Assembly: GCA_003194525.1 (NCBI GenBank)
Contig: NBIV01000173.1
Span: 115,028 to 179,027 of the forward strand
Direction: 5' to 3'
DNA: 64,000 nucleotides
Origin: Gracilariopsis chorda
Lineage: Eukaryota > Rhodophyta > Florideophyceae > Gracilariales > Gracilariaceae
In this document: positions 13,331 to 64,000 of the stretch, piece after piece
Numbering within the stretch: position 1 is the first letter of the stretch
Layout: the number at the start of each line of letters is the position of its first letter
Position numbers and translations under genes: made by a program
Notes under the pieces: model-generated
What the model was told of the DNA's origin: nothing
The model's database searches: none
The model's input: only the letters and a program-made list of their open reading frames with translations

Positions 13331-13429
13331 TATAAATAAAACCCTTTCGGTACTCTCTCCTGAGCAATTTGTACGCCTTTTGCCATATTCTGCTAGCACA
13401 CTATTATAAGAGTAAACCTCTATTATCAA

Positions 13430-41689: not shown

Positions 41690-41968
41690 GGGTCCAAACC
41701 ACCTACACCGCCCGCTAGTGTTGCCTTCAGTGCTAAGAGTGGAACACCTGCAATTGGTTCTGATCAATCCAGTGCTGTACGTTGGAGCACTAGGCGGAAA
41801 TCCAGTCGTTCTTCGTCGGCGGGTGCGGCTAGTTCAGAGTCGGGACGCAGGACGGAGAGAAGAAACATACGGAGGAAGAAAGGTGGAGCGATATTGACTG
41901 CTGCAACAGTTCAACGTCTGCGAACCTATGAGCCTGACGTTCTTTTCAACTTCTTCAAGGAGTTTTAG
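41690..41968 (+). pseudogene. Basic Ser/Arg-rich coding fragment next to the telomere-like array
   Basis: An open stretch ends FNFFKEF at 41968. Its text is Ser/Arg/Lys-rich (STRRKSSRSSSAGAASSES, RRTERRNIRRKKGG), followed by ILTAATVQRLRTYEPDVLF, which looks like a folded or helical segment. The first codons lie in gypsy element B, so the natural start is lost. It could be the tail of a nuclear basic protein of a previous element. No family is recognised. Confidence 0.35.
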
Positions 41969-42425
41969 GGGTTTTCCCGTCTATAGATATAGGGCAGTGG
42001 GTTTACCAGGATTAATGAAAAAGGGAGGTTTTTTCGTGTTTACCAGGTTTATAGAGGATTTTAGGAGTAATGAGGATTTTAGGGATTTCAAGGTGTTTAG
42101 GATATTGGGAGGGTTTTTGGATTTCAGGAGGATTTTAGGATTAATGAGGGGTTTCAGGATTTCAGGAGGGTTTTCAGAGAAACCGGAGGTTGTTATAGGA
42201 TTTCTGGTTTTTACTGGGGTTTCAGGGTTAGCGAGGACTTTAGGGGTTTTTGGGTTTCCGTGGATTTTTAGGATTTCCGAGGTTTTAGGGCTTTTAGGTT
42301 TTCAGTGGGTTTTTAGGATTTCTAGGTTTTCAGTGGGGTTTTATGACTACCATGGGGTTTTCAATGGGGTTTTTAAAGGTTCCCAGGATTTCATTGGGTT
42401 TTCAATGGGGTTTCAGCTGTAAGCA
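41960..42425 (+). repeat. Degenerate telomere-like array, G-rich orientation
   Basis: About 460 bp of TTTTAGGGGTTTT, TTTCAGGAGG, TTTTAGGATT and similar variants, same polarity as the terminal telomere. It begins with TTTTAGGGGTTTTCCCGTCTATAGATATAGGG-type sequence; a CTATAG-containing motif also lies near the array at 56.65-56.69 kb and, inverted, near 1.1 kb. Open frames across it are repeat artefacts. Confidence 0.65.
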
Positions 42426-42493
42426 CACAGAGACCAGGCCGGTATGGGGTCCTGAATCCGACTGGTGTACACGCACCTGGTTGACCCCTTCCG

Positions 42494-42560
42494 GAATGGG
42501 GGAAACATTCCCCCATTTTCACCATATGCGCCCAAATGGGGGAAACATTCCCCCACTTGA
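42494..42560. promoter_or_regulatory. Two tandem GGGGG/CCCCC palindromes
   Basis: AATGGGGGAA-AC-ATTCCCCCATT (about 42495-42517) and AAATGGGGGAA-AC-ATTCCCCCACTT (about 42533-42557) lie 38 bp apart. The same palindrome occurs once at 49647, once imperfectly at 50323, once perfectly at 63610, and as half-sites at 56.3 and 57.5 kb. I propose, without direct evidence, a recombinase or regulator binding site. Confidence 0.6.
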
Positions 42561-42862
42561 GCACATTTTATGTTTTCAGGCTTTTTCACTGGAACTAACC
42601 GGCACCCACACTACGCGAATCTGTTCTACGTGGCATACGTGTCTGACACGCAGAACACGTAACACTGCATGCATACCACCTATATGGGAAGCGGCCCCGA
42701 CAGCGAAATACGTATGACACGTGACCAACATGTAGCACACGTAGCAGAAACGTATGACACGTTAGCAGCAAAAGGGCTATGGAAGGCACACTCACACACG
42801 CATTACAGTGGGGCTGTAGGGAGTGAAATAGGACCCAGATCGGCGATATTGCCAAGCGAAAA

Positions 42863-43022
42863 TCGCTGTGGTAGCGCAGTGGGTACTGGCCATGCCCACT
42901 GCGCTGCCGCACCGGTGATCGTGGGTTTGAACGCTCACACTACCCGCACATCGTGGTTCATGTACTGGCCATGCACGATACACGATACGCGAGTGGTGTG
43001 TTTGTTTGGGTTTTTTTTTTTT
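42863..43022 (+). ncRNA. tRNA-like double-hairpin small RNA, unit 1 copy
   Basis: The first hairpin pairs GTAGCGCAGTGGG with CCCACTGCGCTGC around TACTGGCCATG and overlaps an A-box-like TAGCGCAGTGGG. A B-box-like GGGTTTGAACG follows (42923-42933, one base off consensus). The second hairpin pairs ATCGTG with CACGAT around another CTGGCCATGC. A 12-base T-run ends it at 43011-43022. Stem sequences differ from the 57.2 kb and left copies while pairing is kept and both loops retain CTGGCCATG. There is no cloverleaf, so it is not a tRNA. Confidence 0.65.
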
Positions 43023-44083: not shown

Positions 44084-46609
44084 ATGAACCCTGTTCTCCT
44101 CCATCACTTCAGCCGGGGCAAGAAGCGCGGTATGGTACCCAAAGCACCTCTCTCTGTTCGTGTGCCTAATGTCCGCGCCACACACGACCAAGCGAGGCCT
44201 GGGAATGACACCGAGAGGCAGTTGACGTCCCCTATCATACCGCTCCGCAGGGGTAAGCTTCCCGTTTTGACCCATACGATGCAAGCCGGAGAGAAGGATA
44301 CAATCGAATCCTGCCCATCAAAGTCACCTAGGAACGCTAAGCGTTTATCGCCATCATTCAGTGCCCTGTCGCACCGAAACGAGCGTAGGGAATGCGTAGA
44401 ACAGCCAGAGGTTGCTGGCGATAAATTTTTGCCCGATTCATCGACCGTACGCGTTGCAGAGCCGGAAGACGTAGCAGAAAGGGCACAGGACACAGCGGCA
44501 GCAGATGAAGTGCAGCCAGTGAAAGTCTCAAAGCGCATCACCCTTCCTGAACTGCAGTCACAGCGTGGAGTGAGAGACCCGAGTGCGAGACAGGGGAGAA
44601 GTTCTCCATCAAATGCAATCAGGGAAAACGACGTTGATGTGGAGCGATCTGGTGATGATGTTGAGGAAGCAGACGGAATACATGAAGACGGGACAAACGA
44701 GGGAAACCCGGTGAATTTCTCAGCAGTTGCTGAGAACGAGTCGGAGTATAATGAAGAATACGAATATGAAGTTGCAGAAGAAGAGGGAGTAGATGCGGGA
44801 CCTGGAATCGGCACACTGACCCAATTGCAACCGGTTGATCTTGAGTCGCTATTGAAGAACCAGGAAAACGTACTGAAAGAGAGAAACAAAGAGCTCTTCC
44901 ATCACCGGTCCGACATTATCCGCAGCCCCAGAGAACGCGGAGACTCAGCTGCCTTAATCACTGTGCACTCTCTCCAACGGAAAGGAAGCGACGAACCACA
45001 AACTGACTCTCCGAGACGTCGATGGAGGGAGATGGTCGATGACGCACTCGCACGAGATCCAGGGTACTTCAGCAGCAACAGGGCAAGAATGAAGGAAGCA
45101 TCGGCATCGGTTGGGAAAGGAAGCGCTGCCTATCCCGGGTTGAAGGTGAATCGTCGCAATTGCCTCGACCTCGACACCATCTACATGATGAGATACCGAA
45201 CGAAGGAGCTCATGTCCGTATCATCTGGATCCAGCTTCAAGCTCCTCCAGACAATTGTTGGTCAGTTCTTACGTTGGTGTATCAGCTCCAAGCGGACGCC
45301 CAAGGAGGATGGGTGGAAGAAGAAAGCCTTATTCACTCAGTTCGGAAAAGAAAACCTTGTACAGGTCTTCATCAATCATTTCATATCAACCTCAGCTCCT
45401 TCAACAGTGGCGTCCAAGTGCAACGCTCTACAGATAGTTGCCAAATGTGCAGCACTGCAGTTCTCGACCCAGCGTGCCCAGGTTCGCATTGGAAGGGTCT
45501 CACTATATCTGAAAACTGCCTTCAACGCTGCCAAGTGCAGCTACCGAGAAAAGGCACGGCAGCGCCAGGGTACCGACGAACGCATACAGAAGCAGACCAT
45601 TGTCACGGTGGAGCAGACACAAAAAAGGGTAAACCTTGCATGTGCTGTGCTAGGGGACATCATGGACTCATTCCCTGTGTTGTCCAAGAAGAAGGGGCAA
45701 CCAAAGGCGATGAAGATGTTTGAGGACAGTCCATCGTTGGTGGATAAGTGGTGCCTGAACTTTCTGGGTCTCGTTGCGTTGTCGGGCGGTGGACAGCGAC
45801 CCCAAGCATATGCACGTCTGAAATGCCCCGCACGAACCGTTATCGACGAGGCGTACCACGTTGAAGGCTCAGGAGAGGACACATACAGTCTCCAAACGTT
45901 CAGAGAAAAAATGGCCCGGGTGCTCGACATGCCCGACGTAGTTTTCCCTTGGACATATTTCTCCTTTTTTGCGTTTCAAGTCGACTTTATCTGCCCTGTG
46001 CTGATCGGAAAGCGTCGCACTGAACCTTCGGATATCTTTCTCGACAACGATCCTCTCCTGCTCCACAGTCGCACGGGTGAATACATGACGCCAGGTAACA
46101 TCAGTACCTCCATTCGTCGCTACATGGTCAGCGTCGAACCCCGCCTCACAAACGTGACAGCCATGACGCTCCGAGCGAGCTACGCAACATCAATGCTGCA
46201 CAACTACCCGCAGGGAGTTTTTGAGGAGGAAGGGCTCCCGGAAGAACAGTTTCTGGAACTCGTGGCAAAGCAGATGAATACATCTGTCGAGCAGCTCCCG
46301 AATACCTACATGTCTGCCTACTCGAAGGACTTCAAGCAGGCCATGAGGCTATTCACCCGTCACTTCACGGTCACCATGAACGAGAAGGATAACGAACTGG
46401 ACGATTATGTTGAGGAATCACCGGTTGATTACACCGCACGGATTCCACGTGACCAAATTCCCTATATTCCGAAGTCGGCGACCCGCGTAAGAAATAAAAC
46501 AAAGTTTCAAGTGGGCCGTTCGCATACGGAAAGGGATGAAGAAAGCGAGGACGAGGAGGAATTTGAGCGGGGGGTTATGTTCCCTGAAGAAATCGAGGAG
46601 ACGCAGTGA
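44084..46609 (+). CDS. Tyrosine recombinase, unit 1 (841 aa, intact)
   Basis: Proposed to cut and rejoin DNA through a covalent tyrosine link. Residues 1-250 are low-complexity and acidic toward the end (EEYEYEVAEEEG) and probably disordered. From about residue 360 a helical core-binding-type domain begins (LKVNRRNCLDL, LLQTIVGQFLRWCISSKR). The catalytic domain has Arg572 in LSGGGQRPQAYARL (box I), Arg697 in VTAMTLRASYATSML (box II, where the usual HxLRH is TxLRA) and the likely nucleophile Tyr742 (or Tyr746) in QLPNTYMSAYSKDF. The usual second-box His is Thr in both copies. The tail is Glu-rich. The start is supported because the unit 2 copy begins with similar text (MNPVLLHHF here, MKSVLFHHL there). 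ORF2 lies convergent downstream. It is not obviously a Crypton, DIRS or Starship captain, though a distant link is possible. Confidence 0.85.
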   Translation: MNPVLLHHFSRGKKRGMVPKAPLSVRVPNVRATHDQARPGNDTERQLTSPIIPLRRGKLPVLTHTMQAGEKDTIESCPSKSPRNAKRLSPSFSALSHRNERRECVEQPEVAGDKFLPDSSTVRVAEPEDVAERAQDTAAADEVQPVKVSKRITLPELQSQRGVRDPSARQGRSSPSNAIRENDVDVERSGDDVEEADGIHEDGTNEGNPVNFSAVAENESEYNEEYEYEVAEEEGVDAGPGIGTLTQLQPVDLESLLKNQENVLKERNKELFHHRSDIIRSPRERGDSAALITVHSLQRKGSDEPQTDSPRRRWREMVDDALARDPGYFSSNRARMKEASASVGKGSAAYPGLKVNRRNCLDLDTIYMMRYRTKELMSVSSGSSFKLLQTIVGQFLRWCISSKRTPKEDGWKKKALFTQFGKENLVQVFINHFISTSAPSTVASKCNALQIVAKCAALQFSTQRAQVRIGRVSLYLKTAFNAAKCSYREKARQRQGTDERIQKQTIVTVEQTQKRVNLACAVLGDIMDSFPVLSKKKGQPKAMKMFEDSPSLVDKWCLNFLGLVALSGGGQRPQAYARLKCPARTVIDEAYHVEGSGEDTYSLQTFREKMARVLDMPDVVFPWTYFSFFAFQVDFICPVLIGKRRTEPSDIFLDNDPLLLHSRTGEYMTPGNISTSIRRYMVSVEPRLTNVTAMTLRASYATSMLHNYPQGVFEEEGLPEEQFLELVAKQMNTSVEQLPNTYMSAYSKDFKQAMRLFTRHFTVTMNEKDNELDDYVEESPVDYTARIPRDQIPYIPKSATRVRNKTKFQVGRSHTERDEESEDEEEFERGVMFPEEIEETQ

Positions 46610-47618: not shown

Positions 47619-49274
47619 CTACTCGCTGTCCGAAGAGTATTCGGAGCTACTCTCTCCCGAGTTATTCCCATCTCTCTGTGAATGGTTACAATCGCTGCTT
47701 TCTGTACCCGAAGATGATTCGGAGCCACTTATACTATCGAAGTCGTCACCATGTACTTTGTCCCTGGCCTTTAAGCGAAAGTCGCCTTTGCGGCCGGCGG
47801 AGATGGGGAATAGCAATTGGTTTCCGTTCAAGTATTCGAACGAACCATAGGGGACATCATCAATCATGAGTCGGTCCTTGCCCGTTTTGGCCATACATTC
47901 CAAAGCATCTTCTTCTTCAACCGGGCAGGCTTCCATTGCCGACGGTATCTGTATCTTCATTACAGGTGTACGTCGATAGGCCTCCCCCACTCCGGTGCTT
48001 CCCAGCCTGATATTGTAGAAAGGATCAGCGATCTTCTCCCGCACCCTTGTGTTCATCGGCACACTAGGAAGCGAGGGAATGGTTCCCACTGTTCCATAGT
48101 CGTTCGTTCCGCTACGATCGCAAAAATCCACGAAACTCAGCTTGTCTTGTCTCTTCATGAATCGTTCATGGACTACCTCAGTATAGTTTCCATATTCATG
48201 AAGGTCTCGTCGAATAAATGACTTCGGTCTTACTATAAAAGGCTTCTGCACTCCACTCTGTAGTTTAACCCGAACTGAATGCACGAAGACGACAACTTCT
48301 TCCGAGCAATGTGCACCAAGACGGAACGCAAAAGTAATCGGGAGAATAAGGCTACAACCAACAGCCAAAAAGAATGTCTGGACTCTCCTACTCCTCACCC
48401 CTGCGATAACGGGAGCCACCCATTCATAATACCTTCCATACGACTTCCTTGGACCAGTGTGTCTGCTAATAATTTCTTCGGTCACCGTGACATAGATACC
48501 TAGCTTCTCAATGCTTCCTGGGACCAGACCTCCAGACATACTGGGGAGAAGTGTGAGTATCACATACGACGACTGATTATCCATTCCATTCCCACGTAGG
48601 AGCGAGTTGGGCCAGCAGTACTGTTCTTAGGTGGTGTTCTTCGAGGGGAATATCTCCCCAGGGGAGTAGATGGTGCTCCTGTACCTCCCTATGGTGACGG
48701 AGCCCATCGGTGCGTCAATCAATCTCAAGAAGTCTTGCATGCCAGCCAAGGCGAGCAGAGTGACGCAATAACGACAGAAGCTCCGTGTTTTCACGTATTC
48801 AACAGCCGCTGTACCCATACTCACTCCTGGTTCCTCACCTTCCTTAAATGCACTCAGACATACCTCGGATAAAATGTACTGATGGGCTAGTACCAAAGAT
48901 TCCAAGATGTCACAGGTATTCCCACGGTGTTGATCTGTTAGTCGGACAAGTCGCCCAGCAGATTGCTTTCCTAGGTACGCTTCTTCGAGGCACATGGGGG
49001 ATGAAGAGGTTGACAACTCACTTTGCACGTCGTGAGAAGCTGTTTGTAGGTATGTTAAAACTTCGTCATACTCGCATGGGGTAATGTGATGTGTTCCTAG
49101 TCCGAAACCAAAGCCTTCTTGTAAACATCTGAATGCTGCTACCATCATTCTGTCCTTCAAAGAGTCCGTAGTGTCTGTGGGCATGTACTTCTAAGTAACA
49201 AAGAACTCCATGGGCTTGTCCTTCGTGGCGACATACCTAGACCAGCGCTGGCGCATATTGGTTTTCCTGCGCAT
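47619..49274 (-). pseudogene. ORF2 of unit 1, conserved protein of unknown function, two in-frame stops
   Basis: It is homologous over its whole length to ORF2 of unit 2 (63000-61350). Conserved blocks include AAFRCLQEGFGFGLG, RLVRLTDQHRGNTCDILESL, GMQDFLRLIDAP, LLPSMSGGLVP, GIYVTVTEEI, YYEWVAPVIAG, EEVVVFVHSVRV, and a Ser/Glu-rich acidic tail (SSGTESSD, SSEYSSDSE). I know no family; the middle looks beta-rich and soluble. Homology extends upstream of the first long open stretch to an ATG at 49274 (KDKPMEFF matching REKPLEIL), so the gene has two stops: TAG at 49193-49191 and TAA at 48629-48627. No frameshift is present. It is convergent with the recombinase. Confidence 0.65.
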
Positions 49275-49646
49275 TCTGTGTCAATGGGATGCGTCGCACT
49301 CTAGATGATCTGTGTTCGGTTCGCGTATTGCAGGGGAGAGAGAGTTCAGGTCAGTAGCATGGTGTTAGATGGACAAAAGTAGAGAGATAATCATGGGGGT
49401 TTAGGATTTTTCTCGCTGAAGGATAGTAATCAACTCACATCGCTTAGCTCCACGTTCATACGCTCTGAGAGATGACAAGGGTAAGACTAAACGGTCTGCT
49501 TGTGGCAAAGGGTTCAGTAGCTCGTGAAATAGGCCGGGGGCATGTCAGGTTGTATGGGGGGTGGGGGGTTTTGTCAAAACGGGCTTGGTCCAAACGGTGA
49601 GGTGGTGATAGTATGTTCTCTATGTGAAATAATGGCGGGTTGTGGT

Positions 49647-49678
49647 GCGGAAATGGGGAAGGTTTCCCCCATTTCCGC
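49647..49678. promoter_or_regulatory. GGGGG/CCCCC palindrome at the end of unit 1
   Basis: GCGGAAATGGGG-AAGG-TTTCCCCCATTTCCGC: arms of about 13 bp, with one G missing from the left arm. It lies about 370 bp outside the ORF2 start, as the perfect 63610-63644 palindrome lies about 610 bp outside the unit 2 ORF2 start. Confidence 0.7.
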
Positions 49679-49679
49679 A

Positions 49680-50482
49680 ACAGTGGTATGGCTAAAACGG
49701 GAAGATTACAGCCGGTAAGCGTCAATTACAGTACGCAAGTTGGGAAAGGTTGTGATTTACAACAGTGCGGAAAACCCAGAAGCCCGCATCTTATGCCCCC
49801 CCTGGAACGTTACACGGTGACGATATGCTTCATAAAAATTACCGAAAATTTGGTGGCTTTTCATGACGGCCCGGAGCGGTTGTCCCCACGCCTACTCGTG
49901 TATGAGTAACACAGTGGAACGTGGAAGGGTGTCGATGACCGAACGCGTCACGAAAGAGTAGGGAATGGGGCATACGGTTGATGCGTGTCATATGGAATAA
50001 TAAAATTCTGGGTGGACCGGTAACGGTATTTTGGAAACTATTATAAATTTGAAGCAATAGAATGCTTCCACGGGATAGTGTGGCACAACCGGGCGTTACC
50101 GTGTCACGCATGGCTGAACTGTTTCTTCCAGTGCAGCAGTAGATATACAATCTCCACTGGGCCCCGTTACATTGCCGTGGTGTCCTGCTACAGAGAGCGT
50201 GACGGGCTTATGCCCAATTTTTTTCAAAAAAAACCCAGAGGGGTTGACAGTGGAATCGTCGTTTTTACCCCTTCTCTGAGGCATAGTGCGCATATGACAA
50301 CGTTTTGCGTACATTTGCTCGGAGAAAGGGGGAAGGTTTCTCCCATTTGCGCAGGTCCCCCTTTCCTCACCTTCACTCTTTCTCTCCAGCTAAAAAGGAA
50401 CAAAATGTTCTAATTCTTCCGCTTTTCTTCGTCAGATAGCTATCTCTCATCTTCTGCCCTATTCTACTAACCTCTCTCAACC
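49680..50482. other. Region between unit 1 and the ParB/C48 gene, with an imperfect palindrome
   Basis: It has no supported gene. At 50323-50352 GAGAAAGGGGGAA-GG-TTTCTCCCATTT is an imperfect relative of the unit palindromes, 130 bp upstream of the next gene's ATG. The final 60 bp before that ATG are pyrimidine-rich (TCTTCCGCTTTTCTTCGTC). Confidence 0.4.
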
Positions 50483-53400
50483 ATGTCAAATACATCTGTG
50501 CGGGACAGGGACCTTCTAGCGTGCCGCATCAGCCAGTGCATTGAGCAGGCTAGATGCTCACCAACGCGGTACGGTAGTGTCGATCTGTTCATCGGGCCCT
50601 ACATTGGACGTGAAGTTTCGGCTGGACGTCTACGCTCTCTCATTGAGGATATAGGTGTTCCTCAGCATTATCAAAGCAGTCAGCTGGTTCTAGCCGTGAA
50701 GTCAAGACATGGACCCACAAAAGGGTTTCTCATTATTATCGGAGGGGGCCATCGGTACGTGTCATGTAGTCGGGTACTCCATGGAAGTGTGATTCCATAC
50801 AAGCTTGTGAACTTTTCCGGAGTTTTAGGAGACCGAGAGGACTTGGACATAATCCGGAACAAGGGCATCATTGCGTTCCATGTCGAGTCTAACGAACCGC
50901 GTCCACAGCGATATGGTTTCATGGAACAGGTTCTCCTCTACGACAATCTCAAGATGCACTAGACCCGAATGGAGGAAGAGCGAGTGTCCGGCCTGAAAGG
51001 TAGGAAGTGCACTCCTCATAAAATGTCTCACACTAAGCTATTCCAGTTCTACGAGTCTACGTTTGACATGTTGGGTGCTAAATCAAGGTGGGCAATCGAA
51101 TTCCTGTCACGGAAGGATAACCGGCACGTCAATATCTCTGCTGCTACTCGGCGTCAATATATGTCTGGGGCAGACCGTCTTCTGGAGGCTGGTGTGGTAC
51201 CATACTTGTCTTCCCTTGAACAGGAAGGTGTTGCCGTTTTCAACCGAAGTTCGCTTCATGCCGTTCGCAACTGGTCTGTGGACAAAATTAGAAAGTTAGT
51301 AGAGCTATGGAAATCCAGGCGAACTACGGGCGTGAAGATGAGATACCAATTCAGCGATAAGATCGGTCGCGATGTCCATGGCAAAGGTCGTGGTCGGAAG
51401 CCTAGCCAGTCTGTACCTACTGTTGATGAAGACCAGAAGTTGGAAGCCACTCGGGCCTCCTTGAGTCTACAACCCGGTGGTCAAGGAGCTGAGGGTGAGG
51501 AAGCTGCGCCGAGGACAAATGAAGCCGATTTCATCACTACTTCTCCCAAAAGTCCTGGTGAAAACAAGGGCCAAGATAACAAGCCGGATACAGGTGCTCA
51601 GTCAGTTCAGCATGAACTGGTGAAAAACAGAGAACACACCACCATCCCTGAGGATGATTTACGGAGAAGCTCTGGCTTGGATGATATAATGTCTCGCCTA
51701 GAAAAGGTGTTTGCGCCTACTCAATATGGAAGTGCAGAAACTGGGACAGGGTGCACTACATCACATGTTCAGCAATCAGGAGTGGCACGAGCGGAAAGCC
51801 TTATTGGGAAGAAAACGGACGACGCGTTACTGCTTGTTGACCAAAGAGCTCCAGATGGAACGCAGCCGGGCATGACATCAGCCACAGAGAAGTCGGTATT
51901 AGAGGAGGGTGCCCCAAACGAGAATTCAAGTGCGGATTCTGAGTTGATTACGGCAGCGAATGACAGCGGGACTCTGCCACAAAAACATTTACAACCTGTC
52001 GTCCATGTTCTTGGGAATAGCGAAGCATCGCAACCGGCATGCAATTTGGAGACTACTGGTAGTATATCGGAGAAGCAGGATGGTTTGTCCAACTCAAATG
52101 TATTCATTAAGCTCCTCAATCATCTTGCAGAGCATAAGGCTAGGCTCGGGGATCCGGTTTTTGATGTAGATCTGGAAACTGAAATACAAATCGCAACGAA
52201 CCTCACGGAAAGAATGGGATCGGAATGTGGGGTTCAAGGGCCTTCATTTCTTGAGCTTTTGAAGAAATCTGCAATCGAGGTACATGAAAGGGATAGGAGT
52301 GATATTAAGCTCGCCGCCAAAGGCGGGTTTCTCACTACCAGGTTCACATTGTGCGAAAGCGATTTAATGCCAATACGTAATTTTCATATTGGGAACGACC
52401 GCTCGGTTATGCTCACGTTGTCGTTTCTGACGAAGTGGACTGCAGAATGTGCGCGTGGAAGCGTGTTGCACGATTTGGTCAGGACCTGCGGATGGTGGGA
52501 TGTTACGCTTTCTCAAGATAAGCGTAAGCTAAGGAAGCTGATCGAAGGTCTTGACAGGGATGTAGCCTATGGTCGCAGCTTGCGGGAGGATTTGTGGGCA
52601 TCCCATATATGTTTCATGCCAATATGTGGGAAAGGACACTGGTCGCTAATTGTCATATTGAACCTGAACGGGTTTCTGGATAACATAGGAAAACCGACGA
52701 ATACGAGCTTAAGGAGGTCGAAGAAAATGGCTTGCGTTTAATTTGTGGACAGCTTAGGCTCTACATCTCCTCACAAGTGTATTTGTTGGAATCTGTTCTA
52801 CTACCTTTCAGCATGTTGTCCGCATGCATCTAAACCGTCACCACAAAGTCTCGAGAGGAAGGTATGGAAACGTCATTTGCATGTAGAGCTACAGGAGAAC
52901 ATGGAGTGTGGGTTCTTTGTTGGGTATCATGTGTCCCTGTTCAGTCGGGTGACATCGGAGCTCGAACGTAATACTTTGCGCCAGGTTGAAGTGATGATGA
53001 ATGAGTTAAGGAAATCCTACTCTTTCGAGGCGTACAGAAAAGATGTTTTAGAACGTTTGGACTATCTCCTGAAGCCGTATAACGAGTCGAATGGTATCAT
53101 CACGGTACCAATATGGGATTGGTCTAGTGAAGAGCACCCTGAGCAGGACATTGAAGGACGCCCTGGCGGTGAACCCGTCCATATCGAACCAGGAGAAGTG
53201 CCTGCGAACTTGCATGGTACGCCGAAGCGCTCTGCGATGGAAGGAGGCGACAAACGACATTCTAAGCGGGATGGAACGGAGGCCAGAATGGTAGAGAAGG
53301 AGGAGAATGGGCATAAAATGTTTGAAGATGGGGCGGAGAATTGTCAGGGGTTGACCGCCCGTGGCGTTGAAGAGTTACAGAAGGCAGGGAGCAAAGGCAA

Positions 53401-54471
53401 CACATCAGGTTTTCGTACTAACTATGATTCGAATTGCGATGTGAGGTCTACCGTGGGACCTTGGATTTTAGGGGTTTTGTTAGATGTTGTGAAGCAGGCG
53501 ACACATGATATTAGTTATCAAGGAAAGCCCGAGGATTCGAAGGATGCCCCGTCGGATGTGGCGTTGGAGCAATGTGAATATGAAGATCAACCTCTGAGAA
53601 CCATGGCAACGGGACCAGCGGGTTCGCGGCCAGCGCTGACAGGATCTACAAAGACGGTGGCTTTTCCTGGAGATGATCAGAGCGGTGGTCTTCCTGCTGT
53701 ACCAGAATTACAGAGTGTTTTGAACAATTGCGAAGGATCAAGGAATGGTTTTATCGTCCGCGACGACTATGCGTCGAGGGCCGCTGTGGAGCCCTGGGTT
53801 CTTGGAATGCTTTTACAGGTTGTCGGACTTGCAACAAAGGGTAGGTCCAGCGGACAACTCGGCGAAGAGAGAAGAGACCCGACGTTGGGTGGGTTGTTGA
53901 AACTAGGGGCACCACAGGGAGTTGCAGAGCGTCCGCTTAAAAGACTGGCTACTGGAGCAACTTATATGGAGCAAGAGGAGGGGTTTTCGCCGGGATTGCA
54001 TAAGGGTGTGGGTGTTGCTAGCGTACTGAGATGGCAAAACTCATCGGATAAAGACTGTATATCAACCATCGCTTCCAATTCTCAAGCTAGGTACAGTCCG
54101 AAGTCGAATGTGTGGCCATGGATATCCGAATAGTTTCTGATGTTCTGAAGGAAGCCACGCAGGAGAGATTGGGTGATGAACGATACGATAAGGCAAATCA
54201 TGGGTTGCTCCCGTTTGAACGTCCCGTTAGAGTTCCGGGGGGTGTAGGTCATCTTGTGTTTAAGTCCAAGGACACCGAGAAGAACGAGTTCCATGGAGTG
54301 GGAAGGCAAAAACCAGAGAAGATGGAGTTTGTAGATGATGGTTTTTTGGATGTTGTTCAGGAGGCCTCGACACTTGCGAAGAAGGTGAAAAGCAAGGCTA
54401 TAAAAGAACAATGGGATGTGTGTAGAAGGCAAATATACGCACTACTCACGAAGGTGAAAGCAGAGGAATAG
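50483..54471 (+). pseudogene. ParB-like domain fused to C48 (Ulp1-like) cysteine protease, with PW repeats
   Basis: Codons 1-160 resemble the ParB/sulfiredoxin-type fold: LRSLIEDIGVPQHY, then FLIIIGGGHRYVSC (GxGHR at 87-91), then VIPYKLV. A long Glu/Ser-rich linker follows. Codons ~640-830 form a C48 protease with His719 (GKGHWSLIVIL), Asp756 (VDSLGS), Gln804 and Cys809 (QENMECGFFVGYH), the catalytic set of SUMO/ubiquitin-like isopeptidases. The C-terminus has three repeats of a VxPWxLGxLLxVVxxAT motif (about 53454-53499, 53790-53835, 54106-54160). Two stops interrupt an otherwise single frame, TAG at 50960-50962 and TAA at 52739-52741 (between the His and Asp), and a frameshift lies in the third repeat near 54115. 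As standard code it is dead; all catalytic residues are nevertheless kept. Confidence 0.75.
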
Positions 54472-54561
54472 CATGAAGAAGCGCAGATATCTATATGAAC
54501 CGCGCGAATTGAATATGTTGTTGGTCTTCATGAATTTTTATATGTATAAGTGTTTTAGGTT

Positions 54562-54771: not shown

Positions 54772-55372
54772 GTACGGAAGGTTTTAAGCACGTAGTGACC
54801 CACCAGTACTTTGCTGGCCTACCCAGTGTATGTTTTCTTTACATACACCTATTCCTGTTTGTTCCAGGGGACGTCGCACTTTTCCCCCGCACGACGGATT
54901 GGAAATTATGAAACCGGTCTATAGTCATAGTCCCTAAGCGGGCGTCAGAAAGTGAACCTATGAGGTTGCAACTAGCTTACCACTGGAATTTTATCGAGGC
55001 CTTCTCTCAATCGCACATGCTTGTAGAAAACAGGCAAGTGGTATGTTGTGAACGGATTTCATTAGTTCCAAGTGGGAAAGTTCATACGTTAAGGGGGTGT
55101 GGCGTTTTGGGTTTGGCAACCGTTTGTTTATTGTTATCTTCATAAACAGTCGTAACTGTCCCAAATCTCTGAAACAGGTTCACATGGGCGATTCGTAAAC
55201 CTCGATTGTGTTTACAGGCAACTTTATTGGAGACGAGTCGTTGCATATAAAAGAGACACACATAGTTCTTTCTGGTTTTATAAACACATCTAAAGGGAAC
55301 GGGCCTACATCTCAATCCGGGACCCTACTTTACAAATACGCTTTGATTTATTGTACAACCTAAACACCATCC

Positions 55373-56134: not shown

Positions 56135-56317
56135 CAGGCACACTACGGAATAGAATCATTTCTCTAGAAAATGCTAAGTAGTAAGTAACAAGTAAAAAAT
56201 GTATTCGAAGGATAGAAATTCGACATGAACGAAGTGTGTTTTTAGTCATAAAGTATGTACGTGAACAAAATAAGTCGGCAAGAATACCTGAACAAGTACT
56301 ACATTAAGTGAACTGTG

Positions 56318-56440
56318 AACCATTCCCCCTTTTTGACCAAAGTCGTAAAATAAGGGAACCATGCCCCATTTTTCACCAAGGGACTGAAGTGGGAGAACCA
56401 TTCCCCATTTTCGACCGAGGTGCTAAAATGGGGAAAACCG
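56318..56440. repeat. Cluster of GGGGAA/TTCCCC half-sites
   Basis: Four spaced half-sites: ACCATTCCCCCTTTTT, ACCATGCCCCATTTTT, ACCATTCCCCATTTTC and AAATGGGGAAAACC, about 30-45 bp apart. They are the arms of the palindrome used elsewhere, here dispersed, just outside the telomere-like array. Another pair lies at about 57505-57540 (TTCCCCGAAATGGG, TTTCCCCGTTTCC). Confidence 0.5.
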
Positions 56441-56449
56441 CCACCCAAG

Positions 56450-56960
56450 TCGCACATGGGAGTTCAGGTTTACCGTGGGTTTCAGGTTTACCGTGGGTTT
56501 CAGGTTTACCATTGGTTTTTAGGGGTTTTTAGGAGATTCTTGTAGTAGTGTTACTTGTAAGTATTGGCTAGGGCAGAGTTTTAGGCGGTTTCGGCTTGGG
56601 CATGGTACTGACACAGAACGTTGACCTAGTGGTGGAAACGCTGTATGCGCGTGTATTTAGGGTTTTCACGTCTATAGCTATAGAGACCAATGTTTTTTTG
56701 GATTAACGAATGGAGGATGGTTTCGTGGATATTAGGTTTTCAGGTTTTCAGGTTTTGTAGGATTATAGGATTCTATAGATATAGGAGGATTTCAGGATTT
56801 ACGAGGTTTTCAGGTTTTCTGTGGTTTTGCGCGGTTTTCAAAGGGTTTTCAGTGGGGTTTTAGGGGTTTTTTAGGTTTTGCGTTGGGGTTTTATTGATAG
56901 AGTGGTTTTACGGTGGTTTTACGGTGGGTTTTCAGTTTATGGGTGGTTTTACGCGGGTAA
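56450..56960 (+). repeat. Degenerate telomere-like array, G-rich orientation
   Basis: It begins with tandem TTTACCGTGGGTTTCAGG, then GTTTTTAGGGGTTTTTAGG, ATTTAGGGTTTTCACGTCTATAGCTATAG and many TTTTCAGG/TTTTAGG variants. Polarity equals the terminal telomere. The CTATAGCTATAG motif links it to the arrays near 41.98 kb and, inverted, near 1.1 kb. Confidence 0.65.
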
Positions 56961-57034
56961 CAGTGGGGTTTCCACCCACGGCAACCGGCCGCTGCCACCT
57001 GGCACGAGCCACCCGCCCAGGCTGGGACCTTGGG

Positions 57035-57115
57035 GTGTGACACGTATTACACACAAGTGACACGCATCACACGCACATGACACGCACCACACGCAGTGAC
57101 ACGCAGCACACGTAC
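57035..57115. repeat. ACACG-type short repeat
   Basis: GACACGYA(T/C)CACACGCA units repeat about six times. A less regular ACACGTAGCA/ATGACACGT stretch occupies the same place in unit 1 (about 42635-42765), just upstream of the small RNA. Confidence 0.6.
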
Positions 57116-57202
57116 GCGATTGCAGCTGGCGCTTTACAACGCATTACACCGCCACTAATTGCTTTAAGAAGAGCAAAGCTGAGGTGTTTTGCCAAATGAA
57201 AA

Positions 57203-57354
57203 TCGCTGCGGTAGCGCAGTGGGTACTGGCCATGCCCGCTGCGCTACCACACCGGTGATCATGGGTTCGATTCTCCACACACGCACATTCTGCACCATGC
57301 ACTGGCCATGCACGCTGCGCAATGTGTGCGTGTGTGGGGGGGTTTTGTTTTTTT
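57203..57354 (+). ncRNA. tRNA-like double-hairpin small RNA, unit 2 copy
   Basis: The best-preserved copy. TAGCGCAGTGGG (57212-57223) fits the A box and GGGTTCGATTC (57263-57273) fits the B box of Pol III genes. Hairpin 1 pairs GGTAGCGCAGTGGG with CCCGCTGCGCTACC (one G-T pair) around TACTGGCCATG. Hairpin 2 pairs GCACATT with AATGTGTGC-side bases around CACTGGCCATGC. The T-run at 57343-57354 would end transcription. The T-arm and acceptor do not pair as a tRNA's would. Confidence 0.68.
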
Positions 57355-57786
57355 CCCGTTACCTTTTTCTACTCTAGGTTGGTTTTAGGAAGGAATTAGC
57401 TTAATCAAATACATTACTAAGTTGTGCAAGTCTCTACGGACCGGGAACGTCAGTCTATGGTGTTTTAGGTGAGGGGTGTCTAGGGTACAGGCTACACTGA
57501 GATTCCCCGAAATGGGTTTAGTGTTTCCCCGTTTCCACCCATCGAGGCCTCCCCGGGAAGGGTTGAAAGGGTTTCTTCCGAATCCCCCCATTCGAGACGA
57601 CTCTCTACTAATTGCTATCACTACACCGTGCAGGTGACAAAGATGTCACCCAAACGAGAGCAGAAGGCATGTGGAAAAAGGACGACACTGCAAGTAGATG
57701 CGTACATCGAGATTTTGATCGTAGAGCAATATACATCGTGCTGTTATGTGATGGAAGGGGTTTACAGGTAGCGCCAGCGCAGAAGC

Positions 57787-57847
57787 ACATTACGTAAAGT
57801 ACAGTGCGCTGCCTTTTTTATTGACAGCACACTGTACATTACGTAAC
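57787..57847. repeat. Inverted repeat with ~20 bp arms
   Basis: ATTACGTAAAGTACAGTGCGCTG and its near complement CAGCACACTGTACATTACGT flank a 13-base spacer containing TTTTTT. Mismatches are few. The rest of 57355-58286 holds no supported gene; open frames there are short or antisense. Confidence 0.6.
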
Positions 57848-58286
57848 ACCGCGCTCTTTGAAATTACACAGTCCATGTGGCACGCGCACCATCGTGTGCC
57901 GTAGACCACATTGTACGCCCTTTGCCTTACCCTTCGAGCTGACGGTGAGGGGTGGAAGGCCGAAAGAAGTGTCCAGTTACTATAAAGCGTGTGTTTGAGT
58001 GACCTGTGTGGCTGAGTAGAGAAGACAGTTGCGCGCGTTGTGTCGATAAAGCGTGACGTACGCAAGGGCAAAGAAGTCACGATGCATCGCTGGTGTATCC
58101 ATCGTTGTTAGTGATCCCAGAAATCAGGAGACGGTTTTCAGTTTTGAAGCATTACCACACCGAGTCGTGAAGTGTACAGAGCTGCAGTCCTTCCGTTTCA
58201 TCTCTGCTCTCCGAATAGTTGCCTACGAACAAAACACACCATCGCCAGTTTGTTCCGTATTCATCGCCGTTAGCTTGATACACAAC

Positions 58287-60934
58287 ATGAAGAGCGTTCT
58301 GTTCCATCACCTCAAATCCAACAATTCTTCACGCCTTGGACTAGCAAAACCAATCCGATCCCTTTACCGGAAGAAAGCTACATCCTCCGACACTGCCGCT
58401 GTGTCGCACGAACGACCACCGACTGCAAACGGCAGTACGAATGGTTCCTCTGCACTTCGCACTGACCAGCCCCCGACGGGTCCGACAGCCGCTCAGGGTG
58501 TGACGAAAAAGCTAGGCGTTGCGGCGTCGTTAAGCTCTCCTGTACGCCGCCGTCAAGCACCGCAAGGTGTTGCATCCAAAGCTCAGAGTACCTCCACACA
58601 TGTTAACGAGGGCAATGCTGTTCCGAAGGGCAACTACCATCCGCAATCCGAAAGCCCAACCCGCATCCTGATTCCGAGTCTGAAAGCCCGAAACGCAAAT
58701 GCTGCAAGTGCGAGGGCAGGTGCTCCAAGGAATGTACGAAGCTCCACTCATAACGCAGAAGTGGTCGCCGGGAACCCCGTAGTACCCGTTGGGGTCCTCG
58801 TTGAGAACGTCGAGGAGTTCTCGAGAGAGGAAATTGGAAAGCAGGTATCAGAAGATGAACAGGAGGTGGAAGCTGTTGAGCAAGCTGGCATTAACGTTGT
58901 TCAGGTCGTTGCAGAGACCCCAGAGGAAGGAAGTGGTTTAGACAACACGGAAGCGGTGCTGGATGTCGACGGAGTTGATACTGAGCGGGTTTGGACGAAG
59001 AAGAACACGAGGAGGAGGTCAGTCAAGATGTTACAGCCAGAGGGGAGGAGGGTCTTGAAGAAACACAGGTCGATCTTCGAGAAATGTTACAAAGGCAAGA
59101 GCGCACCTTGAAGAATAGGAACAACGAACTGTTCCATGAAAGGGCTGACATCTTTCAAAGCCCACGTAACCGGGGTAACGCTGCGGCACTGCTCAGTATA
59201 CATTCACTTCAAGCCACGATGGGTGACCATAGCAACAAGCCTGATACTCCAGAGGGGTTGTGGAAAGGTTTGGTGGATCTTGCAGTAGCTCGCGACCCCG
59301 GCTTCTTTTCCAGTCACGACGCTCGTATGAAGAACTCAAATCGGTGTGTGGGAAAGGGTTCGGCCGCGTATTCCGGACTCAAAGTTAACCGGTACAACTG
59401 CCTTGACCTGAATGAAATCTATACGCTTCGATATCGCACAAAGGAGCTAATGAATATGGCATCCGGATCCAGTTTCAAGCTGTTGCAGTCGATTGTGGGC
59501 CAGTTCCTGCGGTGGTGTATTAGTTCCAAACGATTGGGCCGCTACGATGGATGGAAGGAAAGGGCACTTTTCAGACAACTGGCCAAAGAAGACCTCGTCC
59601 AAGTGTTTGTGAACCATTTCATTACCACCTCTTCGTCCTCAACTGTGGCATCGAAGTGCAACGCTCTTCACATTGTCACAAAATATGCGACGCTTAAGTT
59701 CAATGACGATGCAACCCGTCTTCGGATCGCAAGAGTGGCTTTGTATCTAACAACCACCTTCAATGCGGCAAAGTGCAAGTACAGGGAGGACGCCAGACAG
59801 AAGCAGGATGCTGATCGCCGCGTCAAAGAGCACCGCATCGTAACCGAAAGCCAGATCAAGAAGGGTATTCGTCTGGCAAGGGCCGTTCTGGAAGACATCA
59901 TTGACTCTTACTTTGAAAGGGCGGAGAGGAAGGGGCCAGGGTCTGCGGAGAGGATGTTGGCGAAGACAAGTGGACTAATTCAGAAGTGGTGCCTTAACTT
60001 TTTGGGCTTGCTGACGCTCAGCGGTGGTGGCCAGAGACCCCAAGCGTACGCACGTCTACAATGTCCGCCCCGAAAGGTTTTAGAGGCAGTGTACGGAGAC
60101 GATGAGCTTACCCAGGAGGTTGTCAATGTGAAGACGTTCAGAGAGAAAACCGCTCGTGCCCTCGACATACCGGATGTCACATTCCCAGTCATCGTGCTTC
60201 CATACATTACGTTTCACGTGGACGTGATAAGGCCGATCCTACTCAACCGCCGGCACGTTAAGCCATCTGCTGTCTTCCGAAAGAACGAGCCGCTTCTTCT
60301 CCATACTCGAACAGGAGAGTACATGACTCCCAACCATGTGAGTCACTCCATCCGTGCTTTCATGCGAGGCGTAGACCCAAAGCTCACCAACGTCACGGCA
60401 ATGACCCTGCGCGCAAGTTACGCAACATCCATGCTTCACAGCTACCGGCAAGGAATGTTTAAGGACAGTAAGTTGTCGGAGGACGAGTTCTTGGGTTTAG
60501 TAGCGAAGCAGATGAACACGTCAGTTGAGCAGTTGCGGGGTACTTACATGGCTGCGTACTCCAAGGACTTCACGCAGACGATGAAGCTCTTCACGAAGCA
60601 CTTCAGCATTGTTATGAACGAAAAGGGTGACGATATCGAAGGTTGTGTTGAGAGAGAGGAAAGCGAAGATGATGATGACAAAGTGGAGGTTGGGGACTCG
60701 CGTTTGAAGAGAAGGCGCGCTGAGCAACGTCGTAGAGTACCGAAGGGTTTATTCGACTATGACGGCGAAAGTGATGTCGAAGTACCGTCCCCCAAGCGAA
60801 AGGTGAGGAGGAAGACCAAGGAGACATTGGTAGTTGGTAGTGCAGGTTCCTCGAACAGTGGTTTCGATGGTAGAGACGACGCTGAAAACGTATTCCCAGA
60901 CGAGGAAGAGGAGGAAGAGGAGGAAGCGGAGTAA
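58287..60934 (+). pseudogene. Tyrosine recombinase, unit 2, one frameshift
   Basis: Homolog of the 44084-46609 protein. The ATG at 58287 gives MKSVLFHHL, matching the unit 1 start. The N-terminal ~235 codons are low-complexity. A one-base shift near 58980-58992 (around GAGCGGGTTTGG) moves the frame inside an acidic linker (GLDEEEHEEEV after the shift). The rest is intact to the stop at 60934: helical domain (LKVNRYNCLDLNEIY, LLQSIVGQFLRWCISSKR), Arg in LSGGGQRPQAYARL (60035-60037), Arg in TAMTLRASYATSML, Tyr in QLRGTYMAAYSKDF, then a basic KRKVRRKTK patch and a Glu-rich tail. All catalytic candidates match unit 1, which argues for past selection. The shift may be a mutation, an assembly error at low-complexity sequence, or recoding. 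Confidence 0.8.
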
Positions 60935-61349
60935 ACTTTCCATGAATAGAGTAGCAGCGCGGATATGTGGGAGAAGAGTAAAGCCTCTTGAAACACACGG
61001 TTCGTCAGAATTTCGTGTGCCTTTTCTTATAAAAGGTTGCTGCAAAAGGCTGGCGGTGTATCGTGCGTGCCTACCGAGGTTCTTGCTTGCGGTTTACATA
61101 TCAGGTGGTAGCTAGCATTACACTGGACACTGACATCAACGTCCTCCGGTGTTGATTCCCAGAGGTACACCCTGCTTTACACCAATCTAGGAGCCTCCTA
61201 ATCATCGTTGCTTTGCACCTCCTCCCATTGCTTCACACGATGATTTTACGGGCCACGTGTGCAAACGAGCGGTTGTGGCGTTACCAGAAATAGAATTCAA
61301 TGTTTAGGAAGTGGAGTTTAAGATTCATTGCTTAGGTCTCGCATCTTCT

Positions 61350-63000
61350 TCACTCTGAGTGCCCATCATCGCTTTCTTCAGACTCCGTTCCTGCACTCGA
61401 CTGACTTGAGCTTAAGACTTCACTGCCGTTTTCCCCCTCTTCTTCCCACACCTCGCCAATGCACAGTGGAAATTGCAGAGGTTTTCCAAGTACTCTCTCA
61501 AAGTGGTCATACGGGACATTATCAATCAGGTATCGGTTGTCTCCATGGAGTCCCATCAAACGAACTCCATCCTCTACAACATCACTCTCATCATTTGCGC
61601 CCGCGTTGAGGTTCTTCAGCCTCAAAACCGGAGTTTTCTGATAAGCATTCAGGATTCCCTCACATCCTAACCGGAGATCGGAAGCCGATTCAGCCAATTT
61701 CAAACGCATTTCGGTGTTCAAAGGGACATTGACAACGGAAGGAATCGTCCCAACTACACCAAGGTCCTGCTGCTCATCATCGTCAAAGTAGTCATTCCAA
61801 TCGAGGTAGCTGGTTTTAGACCTGTAGCTCTTCTCAAGAAAATCCGTGTAGTTGTCATACTCGTCAAGATCACGGAACTGGTACGACGCTGGTCTTTTCA
61901 AGAAGGCCAGCTTCCTGTCGCCAGATAAAGTCACACGCACGGCGTGTATGAACACAACTACTTCCTCCTCCGGGTGCGATCCTAGGCGTACAACGCACGT
62001 ACTTGGGACGACTATGCTGCACCCCATCGTAAGATACACGGTTTGAACTCGCTTTCTGGGCTTCCCAGGCATGATGGGAGGAACCCACTCGTAGTAGTTG
62101 CCCTTCTTCCCGTACTCTCCGCTGTGACCACGCACAATCTCCTCCGTTATAGTAATGTAGATACCAAGGGTCTTCAACTTATTTGGAATTAGTCCAGTCG
62201 ACATGCTTGGGAAGAGAGTGTATACCATGAACAAAGCCTCATCGTGCAATCCTTCTTCACTGAGGATGGTATTACTCCAGCAGTAATGTGTCAGAGTCTT
62301 ACCATTCGTGGGGAATGTGCGTTCTCCCGAGTACAATGTACTACGCTCAGAATTCACGGTGACGGATTCGATTGGAGCATCGACTACACGTAAAAAAGTC
62401 TTGCATGCCACAGAGAGCTGGTAGTACAGCACAATAACGAAAACCACTCCATGTGTGAACCTGGTGTTGTGGGCGTTCCTGTCTGTGCTTCTCGGGTTTA
62501 TCGTTCTCTAAGTCATAAAACCCCCCCTTCTCGCAAACCAAACACAATGCGTATTGATGAGCCACAATCATTGACTCAAGTACCGCGCATTTTTCCTTGT
62601 CCCGGTGCTCTGTTAGTCGGACGAGTCTTGCCTTAGATATTGGCCCCACGTAAGAGTTCTGGAGGTCATAAGGTGTGTGAAATGTAGATAAGCCACTTAG
62701 GACGTCGGACGTTGTTGGTTGTAAATAATGTAGGATGTCTGCATAGTTGCAGACTGTGAGATTGTGCATGCCCATGGTGAACCCAAACCCTGTCTGTAGA
62801 TGGCGAAAGGCTGCTATCATAGTGTCTATCTCTTTCGAATTACTCGATGTTTCCTCGTACTCCATGCTGTCGGCAAGGATCTCCAAAGGCTTCTCCCGCG
62901 TTCCTATGAAGTCAAAACACCACTCTCGTCGCATTGATTGAGTACCCATGATACCGGCAGAAGTCTTCGCTTGACGAAATGGAACTGGAGCTGTGTGCAA
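61350..63000 (-). pseudogene. ORF2 of unit 2, conserved unknown protein, one frameshift
   Basis: Two overlapping minus-strand frames, 63000-62347 and 62447-61350, together match ORF2 of unit 1. The frame must change at a run of six T (plus-strand AAAAAA at 62391-62396) in the block GMQDF-LRVVDAP, which is continuous in unit 1. Conserved text: AAFRHLQTGFGFTMG, RLVRLTEHRDKEKCAVLESM, LFPSMSTGLIP, GIYITITEEI, NYYEWVPPIMPG, EEVVVFIHAVRV, LIDNVPYDHFE, and an acidic Ser-rich tail (SSQSSAGTESEESDD). No known family. The six-T run could be a real indel, a sequencing slip, or a recoding site. Confidence 0.65.
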
Positions 63001-63700
63001 AGGGGGGCGTGCGCAGTTACTAGGGGTTGGATTTGAGTTCCAATCGTTCTAAGGCGGTGGGATGCGTTTTAAAACGCCCTGGGTTCTTTTGAAGGTTGCT
63101 GATCGAGTTACCCTTGCTGTTGCGAATGTCTAGATGCTCCGCTTGTTCTGCGTAGTGGTGGTTTCTATGCGGTTTCGACGACGGTATTATGTGTGGAAAA
63201 AAGGGGTTTGTAGGTTTGCAACAAAGAAGGGCTTTCCCTGGTTAGTCAATAGTCTGCAAGTGTATTGGTGGTGGCACTGATCAGGTTGCGTTTGGGGATG
63301 TTCGTTGAGCAGGTGGGTTTTTTAGGGGTGTTGGTGTTTTAGGGGAATGTGAGCTGCAGATCAGACCACGGTATGTAGATGTCTGGCGTGAGGTTGGAGG
63401 GCTTTGTTAGTTTGAGGGGTTTCCATGAACTGGGAGGGGTATGGTCTGGTGAATGCGGTTTTTAGCGGATGTTATTGCATGGTTTCACCTTGTACGTGGT
63501 GCACGTTTGTGCTGGAAAGGTTGGCGTTTGTTGAAAACCCCTCAGCAGAGGGTGATCAGGGTACACGGCGCTTTACGTACGGAGATTCATGTAGGCGTTG
63601 TTGTGGCTTGGACGAAATGGGGGAATGATTCCCCCATTTCGTCCTATGTCATGCCGGGCGTTTTTTTTGGGATGGCGAGATGTGAGTTACACTGGGTGGG
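63001..63700. other. Region between ORF2 and the telomere
   Basis: No supported gene. It becomes progressively TTTTAGGGG-like (for example GTTTTTTAGGGGTGTT near 63317). The palindrome at 63610 is the only clear signal. Confidence 0.35.
63610..63644. promoter_or_regulatory. Perfect 17-bp GGGGG/CCCCC palindrome before the telomere
   Basis: GGACGAAATGGGGGAAT, one G, then ATTCCCCCATTTCGTCC: 17-bp perfect arms around a single base. It lies 58 bp from the first telomeric repeat. It is the best example of the motif seen in unit 1 and before the ParB/C48 gene. Confidence 0.8.
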
Positions 63701-64000
63701 CGTTTTGGGGTTTTTTAGGGGTTTTTAGGGGTTTTTTAGGGGTTTTTTTAGGGGTTTTTTTTAGGGGTTTTTAGGGGATTTTTAGGGGTTTTTTAGGGTT
63801 TTTTTTAGGGGTTTTTTAGGGGTTTTTTTTTAGGGGTTTTTTAGGGGTTTTTTAGGGGTTTTTAGGGGTTTTTTAGGGGTTTTTAGGGGTTTTTTTTTAG
63901 GGTTTTTTTTTAGGGGTTTTTTAGGGGTTTTTTTTAGGGGTTTTTTAGGGGTTTTTAGGGGTTTTAGGGGTTTTTAGGGGTTTTTTAGGGGTTTTTTAGG
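63701..64000 (+). repeat. Terminal telomere repeat array, T(4-8)AGGG(G)
   Basis: About 30 consecutive repeats. The AGGGG part is almost invariant (a few AGGG); the T-run varies, mostly four to six with several of eight. The G-rich strand runs toward the window end, as on the right end of a chromosome. The variable T-run may be real (slippage on the telomerase template) or a homopolymer sequencing effect. Confidence 0.9.

Follow-up and report, generated by a model that had tools for sequence, protein, structure and literature searches.

Our analysis of a 64,000-nucleotide stretch of DNA from the red alga Gracilariopsis chorda (contig NBIV01000173.1, positions 115,028 to 179,027; the window) revealed two gene-bearing units arranged head-to-tail at a chromosome end, together with a reversed piece of a third. 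In units 1 and 2 the elements follow each other in identical order and on identical strands: a degenerate telomere-like array, a repeat of the ACACG type, a small RNA, a tyrosine-recombinase-like gene, a convergent second gene (open reading frame 2, ORF2) and a palindrome (Table 1). Feature coordinates and alignments bear out the shared content, orientation and order that a first-pass annotation of this DNA had described, and the array at 63703-64000, which unit 2 was said to reach, is of the telomere type. The start given there for unit 2 (56.3 kb) was wrong; the true start is 56656, and 56.3-56.65 kb is other DNA, of which 56515-56656 is a repeat also present at 14776-14924. The inverted fragment proposed at 0.2-1.1 kb (unit 3) was recovered as far as its left border, array and RNA are concerned, but a pattern scan found no palindrome of the ATGGGG..CCCCAT kind in it, and no ACACG block was seen by eye. 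The palindrome pattern ATGGGGN4-12CCCCAT has three matches in the window against 0.02 expected. Genes were observed in units 1 and 2 only, where the recombinase ATG lies about 0.9-1.1 kb from the RNA; since unit 3 is truncated by the edge of the window ahead of any recombinase start, it may be a complete third unit. The first 237 bases of the window have no similarity above shuffles to units 1 and 2. The window as a whole is eukaryotic in character, with its TTTTAGGGG-type telomere array and Gypsy elements that carry reverse transcriptase, RNase H and integrase.

All three copies open with a telomere-repeat stub of 11-14 nt, and their flanks are unrelated. The distance from the stub start to the motif TCTATAGNTATAG is 17 nt in unit 1, 15 nt in unit 2 and 16 nt in unit 3; the motif has six strand-matches at four places in the window but none in 100 shuffles. 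The initial 100 bp are similar between copies, with scores of 195 and 180 for two pairs (shuffle maximum 109 each; 0 of 500 mononucleotide shuffles as good) and 103 for the third pair (1 of 500 as good). Across the border no similarity was found between the 300-bp flanks, for which 44, 92 and 25 of 200 shuffles were as good. The left flank of unit 2 is formed by repeat X, whose other copy (14924-14776, opposite strand) is 80.5% identical over 149 bp and runs on without a unit. The BLAST match between the two stops at ...CGTGTAT, which is the start of unit 2, while a gapped alignment carries on for roughly another 20 nt with low identity. Because repeat X is uninterrupted at 14.8 kb, the border of unit 2 is precise, and the copy there is the nearest thing in the window to an empty site. 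An origin of the arrays as independently internalised telomeres was rejected, since the border motif and the initial 100 bp are similar between copies.

The telomere-like arrays also have a common polarity. We divided the window into 128 bins of 500 bp, counted the 9-mers that match TTTTAGGGG, in whichever rotation, with at most two mismatches, and applied a self-chosen threshold of 40 per bin (mean about 10). Four bins reach it on the forward strand (42.0, 56.5, 63.0 and 63.5 kb), all from 42 kb onward, and six on the reverse strand (0.5, 1.0, 12.0, 13.5, 14.0 and 18.5 kb), all before 19 kb. The arrays face outward, the left ones leftward and the right ones rightward, in 10 of the 10 bins over threshold. 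Unit 3 is consistent with this polarity if the left chromosome end is nearby, and from the unit lengths we predict that end about 6-7 kb past position 1.

Our best explanation, in which we place about even confidence, is that a single old family of compact telomere-directed tyrosine-recombinase DNA elements, resident at chromosome ends, includes units 1 and 2 and probably also unit 3. The earlier model of an element that inserts into or caps telomeres is thereby partly supported: the repeated and precisely bordered module, the telomere-like sequence on its proximal side, the array after unit 2, the probable tyrosine recombinase and the outward polarity all speak for it, and selection on both proteins as well as structural conservation of the RNA were likewise observed directly. 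According to the main rival, which we consider doubtful, the units are passive subtelomeric gene modules that break-induced or telomere-repeat recombination has copied from end to end, and the recombinase serves another role. Yeast Y' elements and telomere-linked helicase regions are stable residents of chromosome ends, and other blocks of the window also lie beside telomere-like arrays (RecQ-like and FANCJ-like genes at 6.6-12.2 kb, between arrays at 13.4-14.9 and 0.7-1.1 kb, and an Ulp1-like frame at 50.5-54.1 kb). Moreover, the stubs at all three unit starts could come from the healing of broken ends. However, three diverged copies with unrelated flanks all carry the same 13-nt motif 15-17 nt inward of the border, which points to an end that is coded by the element, and units 1 and 2 are much too diverged for a recent end-to-end exchange.

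Table 1. Features of the units and their surroundings (window positions).
Feature	Position	Strand	Remarks
Unit 1	41963-49.7 kb
Unit 1 telomere-repeat stub	41963-41975	+	TTTTAGGGGTTTT; proximal border
Unit 1 degenerate telomere-like array	41963-42440	+	G-rich strand toward right telomere; outer limit by eye
Unit 1 border motif	41980-41992	+	TCTATAGATATAG; 0 in 100 shuffles
Unit 1 left palindrome pair	42496-42556		adjacent, ATGGGGGAA..TTCCCCCA(T); first by pattern, second by eye
Unit 1 ACACG-type repeat	42710-42768	+	period 20
Unit 1 small RNA	42849-43022	+	double hairpin, A/B-box-like motifs, T12 run
Unit 1 tyrosine-recombinase-like gene	44084-46609	+	841 amino acids, intact
Unit 1 ORF2	47619-49184	-	in-frame TAA at 48627-48629; no family match
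Unit 1 right palindrome	49643-49682		16-nt arms, 94% complementary
Ulp1/C48-like protease frame between units	50471-54130	+	two stops in frame (TAG, TAA); sub-threshold Pfam E 0.015
Three tandem palindrome-like repeats	56317-56436		39-bp spacing; then telomere-like DNA 56463-56536
Repeat X (flanks unit 2 on its left)	56515-56656	+	uninterrupted homologue at 14776-14924 (-)
Unit 2	56656-63702		then telomere of TTTTAGGGG type
Unit 2 telomere-repeat stub	56656-56666	+	TTTAGGGTTTT; proximal border; first T common with repeat X
Unit 2 degenerate telomere-like array	56656-56965	+	outer limit by eye
Unit 2 border motif	56671-56683	+	TCTATAGCTATAG; second motif TCTATAGATATAG at 56772-56784
Unit 2 ACACG-type repeat	57037-57112	+	period 20
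Unit 2 small RNA	57189-57354	+	double hairpin
Unit 2 tyrosine-recombinase-like gene	58287-60934	+	one frameshift (frames 58050-59111, 58985-60934)
Unit 2 ORF2	61350-63000	-	one frameshift
Unit 2 right palindrome	63610-63644		perfect 17-nt arms; 58 bp ahead of telomere
Telomere array	63703-64000	+	TTTTAGGGG-type, T number variable; right end of window
Unit 3 (reversed) small RNA	190-380	-	double hairpin
Unit 3 (reversed) degenerate array	700-1128	-	limit by eye; border motif 1112-1100
Unit 3 telomere-repeat stub	1128-1115	-	TTTTAGGATTTTTT
Additional degenerate telomere-like array	13400-14350	-	left-pointing; lies past repeat X (14924-14776); limits judged by eye

Between units 1 and 2, the recombinase shows 59% identity across 527 amino acids (56% in a separate alignment). 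XerD, XerA and XerC were the sole NCBIfam families matched up to an E value of 10 (E 0.0058-0.09), with the matches covering the second-arginine box in the same stretch of both units; the queries were the whole protein and a 201-amino-acid piece for unit 1 and only a 201-amino-acid piece for unit 2. Run against eight known recombinases, hhalign again aligned this stretch, at a score of 19.8, which 7 of 300 column shuffles reached, whereas the controls gave 13.0 (reversed columns) and 13.7 (ORF2). R572 (GGGQRPQ), R697 (TLRASYAT) and Y742, all invariant between the units, fit the catalytic positions of the R...HxxR...(H/W)...Y motif by eye; Y746 is invariant as well.

ORF2 matches between the units in three pieces (39% identity over 320, 43% over 152 and 50% over 34 amino acids) and had no match in anything searched. 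Second codon positions are identical in 79% of 521 recombinase codons and 70% of 274 ORF2 codons, as compared to 39% and 34% at third positions, and this combination of low third- and high second-position identity indicates an old divergence of both genes under purifying selection. Such strong selection, the conserved structured RNA and the terminal position would also suit host genes, with a domesticated recombinase family carrying out programmed rearrangement of chromosome ends (gene switching) and ORF2 as its partner. We regard this as highly unlikely, as three of the four gene copies bear frameshifts or a nonsense codon, several transposons lie nearby and no cassette array was seen in the window. 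Both frameshifts lie beside homopolymer runs (by eye), however, so that base-calling errors are possible. An altered genetic code was not supported: the in-frame stops noted in the window are TAG (7427, 50960) and TAA (48627, 52739), and the 841-amino-acid recombinase contains none.

Of the non-coding matches that link units 1 and 2, the small RNA scores highest (79% identity, 174 bp); the gaps between RNA and recombinase and between recombinase and ORF2 show no similarity above shuffles. The RNA folds as two hairpins in each of the three copies (z -6.8, -5.4 and -5.6 versus shuffles), and CUGGCCA forms the terminal loop of all six hairpins. The corresponding pattern RCTGGCCATGC has six matches in the window, with 0.10 expected. 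In hairpin 1, 85 of 87 cells are paired and the 29 pairs include seven one-sided and one two-sided pair-keeping change, a count biased toward this structure because it was derived from unit 1. Hairpin 2 keeps its loop, has 16-nt arms that are 44-81% identical, reaches only a z of about -2 versus shuffles when taken alone, and is short in unit 3. Motifs resembling an A box (TAGCGCAGTGGG/TAGCACAGTGGG) and a B box (GGTTTGAACGC/GGTTCGATTCT/GGTTCGACTCC), judged by eye against the consensus and poor for the B box of unit 1, together with T runs of up to 12, 7 and 5, suggest transcription by RNA polymerase III. A tRNA or a known RNA family was rejected, as ARAGORN found no tRNA and Rfam had no match in the window at the gathering score and only sub-threshold matches in units 1 and 2 up to E 10. 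A telomerase RNA was rejected as well, since no template-like CCCCTAAAA was seen by eye. No relatives of the RNA pattern were found in viral contigs.

The hairpins, with inverted arms around a 7-bp spacer, may instead be read as recombination sites in the DNA (compare PMC3212892). However, the two hairpins lie 74-79 bp apart in direct orientation and deep within the unit, the arms of hairpin 2 diverge yet still pair, and the G-U changes favour an RNA. Judging from their sequence, the self-complementary UGGCCA could let the two CUGGCCA loops base-pair either within one RNA or with another molecule. A more far-reaching proposal is an RNA-assisted chromosome-end system in which the double-hairpin RNA would position the recombinase on telomeric or palindromic DNA and the outward addition of modules would build or repair ends alongside telomerase; we rate it as very improbable.

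Several results weigh against a family of telomere-directed recombinase elements, some of them concerning the enzyme. The recombinase did not stand out significantly from shuffles in a box II matrix test (391 of 2000 and 167 of 2000 did equally well), in which other reading frames of the window reached higher scores; the usual catalytic histidine positions are occupied by M694 and N732. The recombinase matched nothing at the Pfam cut-off (best for unit 2 was Peptidase_M3_N, E 0.028) and nothing in PHROG up to E 10, its PDB matches were at chance level with no recombinase among them (best E 0.28 and 0.42), and AlphaFold2 models from two-sequence alignments were discarded as meaningless (mean predicted local distance difference test 34.5 and 36.9). 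The label of tyrosine recombinase given in the first-pass annotation is favoured by the Xer-only NCBIfam matches and the hhalign result but not by Pfam, PHROG, PDB or the box II matrix; it is supported, if weakly, and the unit genes probably do encode such an enzyme. Other points concern the element. Lesions affect the recombinase of unit 2 (frameshift), ORF2 of unit 2 (frameshift) and ORF2 of unit 1 (TAA). At their right ends the two units show no alignment better than shuffles, so that the excision ends are undefined and terminal direct repeats of 4-6 bp, a mark of Cryptons, cannot be defined from two copies. Telomere-like DNA was not found directly after the palindrome of unit 1, unit 3 has the opposite orientation to units 1 and 2, and the data represent one chromosome end only. 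Apart from these points, scans for relatives of the recombinase in viral contigs and GTDB genomes, and of ORF2 in viral contigs, found none, but were seeded by two to six short peptide patterns and can therefore miss relatives; a tblastn search of plasmids with the recombinase was likewise negative.

If the units do form such a family of telomere-directed elements, the best reading of their content is a recombinase-like enzyme, a second conserved protein, a putative polymerase III-type double-hairpin RNA and a start composed of the stub and TCTATAGNTATAG, within an element of about 7 kb (unit 1 would reach about 14.5 kb with the Ulp1-like block included). The recombinase would produce a circular or free copy of the element, by excision or copying. 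This copy would be attached to the telomeric repeats of a chromosome end, at its tip or close to it, and telomerase would then lengthen the new outer end. Each later arrival would settle on the outer side of its predecessors, building up head-to-tail stacks in which decayed telomere-like DNA separates the units, and the RNA and the ORF2 protein would presumably act as cofactors. Mobile elements directed to telomeres are mostly retroelements. The units could represent a small DNA-only route beside the telomere-associated transposable element (TATE) of kinetoplastids and telomere-inserting nimaviruses, a simple system for studying how recombinases recognise telomere repeats, and a testable case of subtelomere growth by outward stacking.

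Telomere-linked RecQ helicases and yeast Y' elements, which occur as modules at many ends and are spread by recombination without a recombinase of their own, resemble the units as gene modules at chromosome ends. TATE is described as a VIPER-like tyrosine-recombinase retroelement that occupies one position of the telomere repeat and forms tandem clusters at ends (PMC6681497, PMC2696322). By these accounts the units resemble it in their probable recombinase and may do so in the tandem clustering at ends, with a stub at all three starts, an array after unit 2 and a head-to-tail pair at one end. However, TATE is reported to have Gag-like and reverse transcriptase/RNase H frames and terminal repeats, whereas no reverse transcriptase or RNase H was found in the unit frames scanned, and the units instead have a convergent second gene, a structured RNA and a telomere of the TTTTAGGGG type. 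Among endogenous nimaviruses, majaniviruses, pemoniviruses and some whispoviruses carry a distinct tyrosine-recombinase family linked to insertion into telomere repeats (PMC10871703). As described there, these have large genomes (579 kb in one clopovirus) and crustacean hosts, in contrast to the two genes and roughly 7 kb of the units, a distinction drawn from these descriptions. No viral genes were found in the unit frames scanned with Pfam and PHROGs, the latter covering prokaryotic viruses only.

Cryptons may resemble the units as DNA elements with a tyrosine recombinase, and none of the 11 unit frames of at least 140 amino acids contains a reverse transcriptase. They may differ in that no Pfam domain, including the DUF3504 of Cryptons as far as the Pfam copy covers it, was found in the unit recombinase up to E 10. 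No telomere-targeting Crypton was met among the open-licence papers listed. The oomycete element CryptonF-2_PS encodes a C48 (Ulp1) peptidase besides its recombinase (PMC3212892). This pairing, which the Ulp1-like frame near unit 1 resembles, and the use of tyrosine recombinases by TATE and telomere-inserting nimaviruses could point to the remnant of a larger element, either an integrated DNA virus or a TATE- or DIRS-like retroelement that lost its other genes. We consider such an origin improbable. Units 1 and 2 yielded no Pfam match at cut-off in any of the 11 stop-to-stop frames of at least 140 amino acids, which were the ones scanned of 27 frames of at least 100; among all frames scanned, the only reverse transcriptases were those of two Gypsy copies that lie outside the units, and the same compact gene set is present twice.

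Rotifer Terminons, as described in PMC6431247, also form head-to-tail arrays at chromosome ends; telomere stubs truncate their copies, and they carry accessory genes as well as a structured RNA element. By that description they rely on a Penelope-like reverse transcriptase and a hammerhead ribozyme, in contrast to the recombinase and the tRNA-promoter-like double hairpin of the units. Among the open-licence papers that our searches listed, none pointed to a compact DNA element built in this way. The first-pass annotation had regarded the combination as an unfamiliar one, which holds insofar as none of the known systems is described with this gene pair and RNA, but recombinases that target telomere repeats have been published (PMC6681497, PMC2696322, PMC10871703), albeit from elements with a different architecture. 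With telomere-specific recombinases already known from TATE and nimaviruses, what is new, as far as the descriptions tell, is this gene pair together with the RNA.

Telomere-like repeats are classical points of misassembly, and unrelated contigs or haplotypes could have been misjoined at them; a 170-bp, 98% tandem duplication at 39305-39645 could be artefactual. We regard a misassembly of the units as extremely unlikely, because the chromosome side, units 1 and 2 and the DNA that separates them have a similar composition (GC 0.46-0.50; tetranucleotide correlations 0.67-0.80) and the unit borders are alike in three copies. Correlations for the short unit 3 piece (1.1 kb) are 0.40-0.45. The internal arrays are heavily decayed and are therefore not the fresh telomeres of misjoined contigs. 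A run of 21 C at 2673-2693 is likely to be a weak point of the assembly.

In the block between the units, the Ulp1-like frame shows, by eye, the H, D and C residues of a protease pattern. This block and the palindrome-like repeats that follow may be part of unit 1, in which case unit 2 would be an abbreviated form that stops at the corresponding palindrome. A pair of oppositely oriented Gypsy elements with 72% identity lies at 27803-29996 and 41674-39484; the match to the second ends at 41674, so that its protease side is apparently missing just before unit 1. The 170-bp duplication lies within this copy and is either recent or an artefact.

Near the left-pointing arrays, a RecQ-family helicase gene occupies two frames at 6608-8206 (+; recQ_fam E 1.2e-11 and 1.1e-15; best PDB match Bloom helicase), perhaps with an intron that contains the in-frame TAG at 7427. 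Telomere-linked helicases in fungi sit near telomeric arrays. It is adjoined by a Rad3/FANCJ-type helicase gene in pieces at 9520-12183 (+), whose best PDB match is the Fanconi anemia group J protein (E 1.7e-29). A CGACAGGAATGAGTTCCTGTCG-like hairpin is repeated within longer direct repeats at 2400-3620 and occurs as single copies near the helicase genes, at 9286-9337 and about 13290 (the last by eye). Elsewhere in the window, related reading frames lie at 5326-5874 and 33590-34504, the second with sub-threshold similarity to an N6-adenine methyltransferase, and a satellite-like tandem repeat family of about 203 bp is common to 24225-24698, 31249-32599 and 37098-37847.

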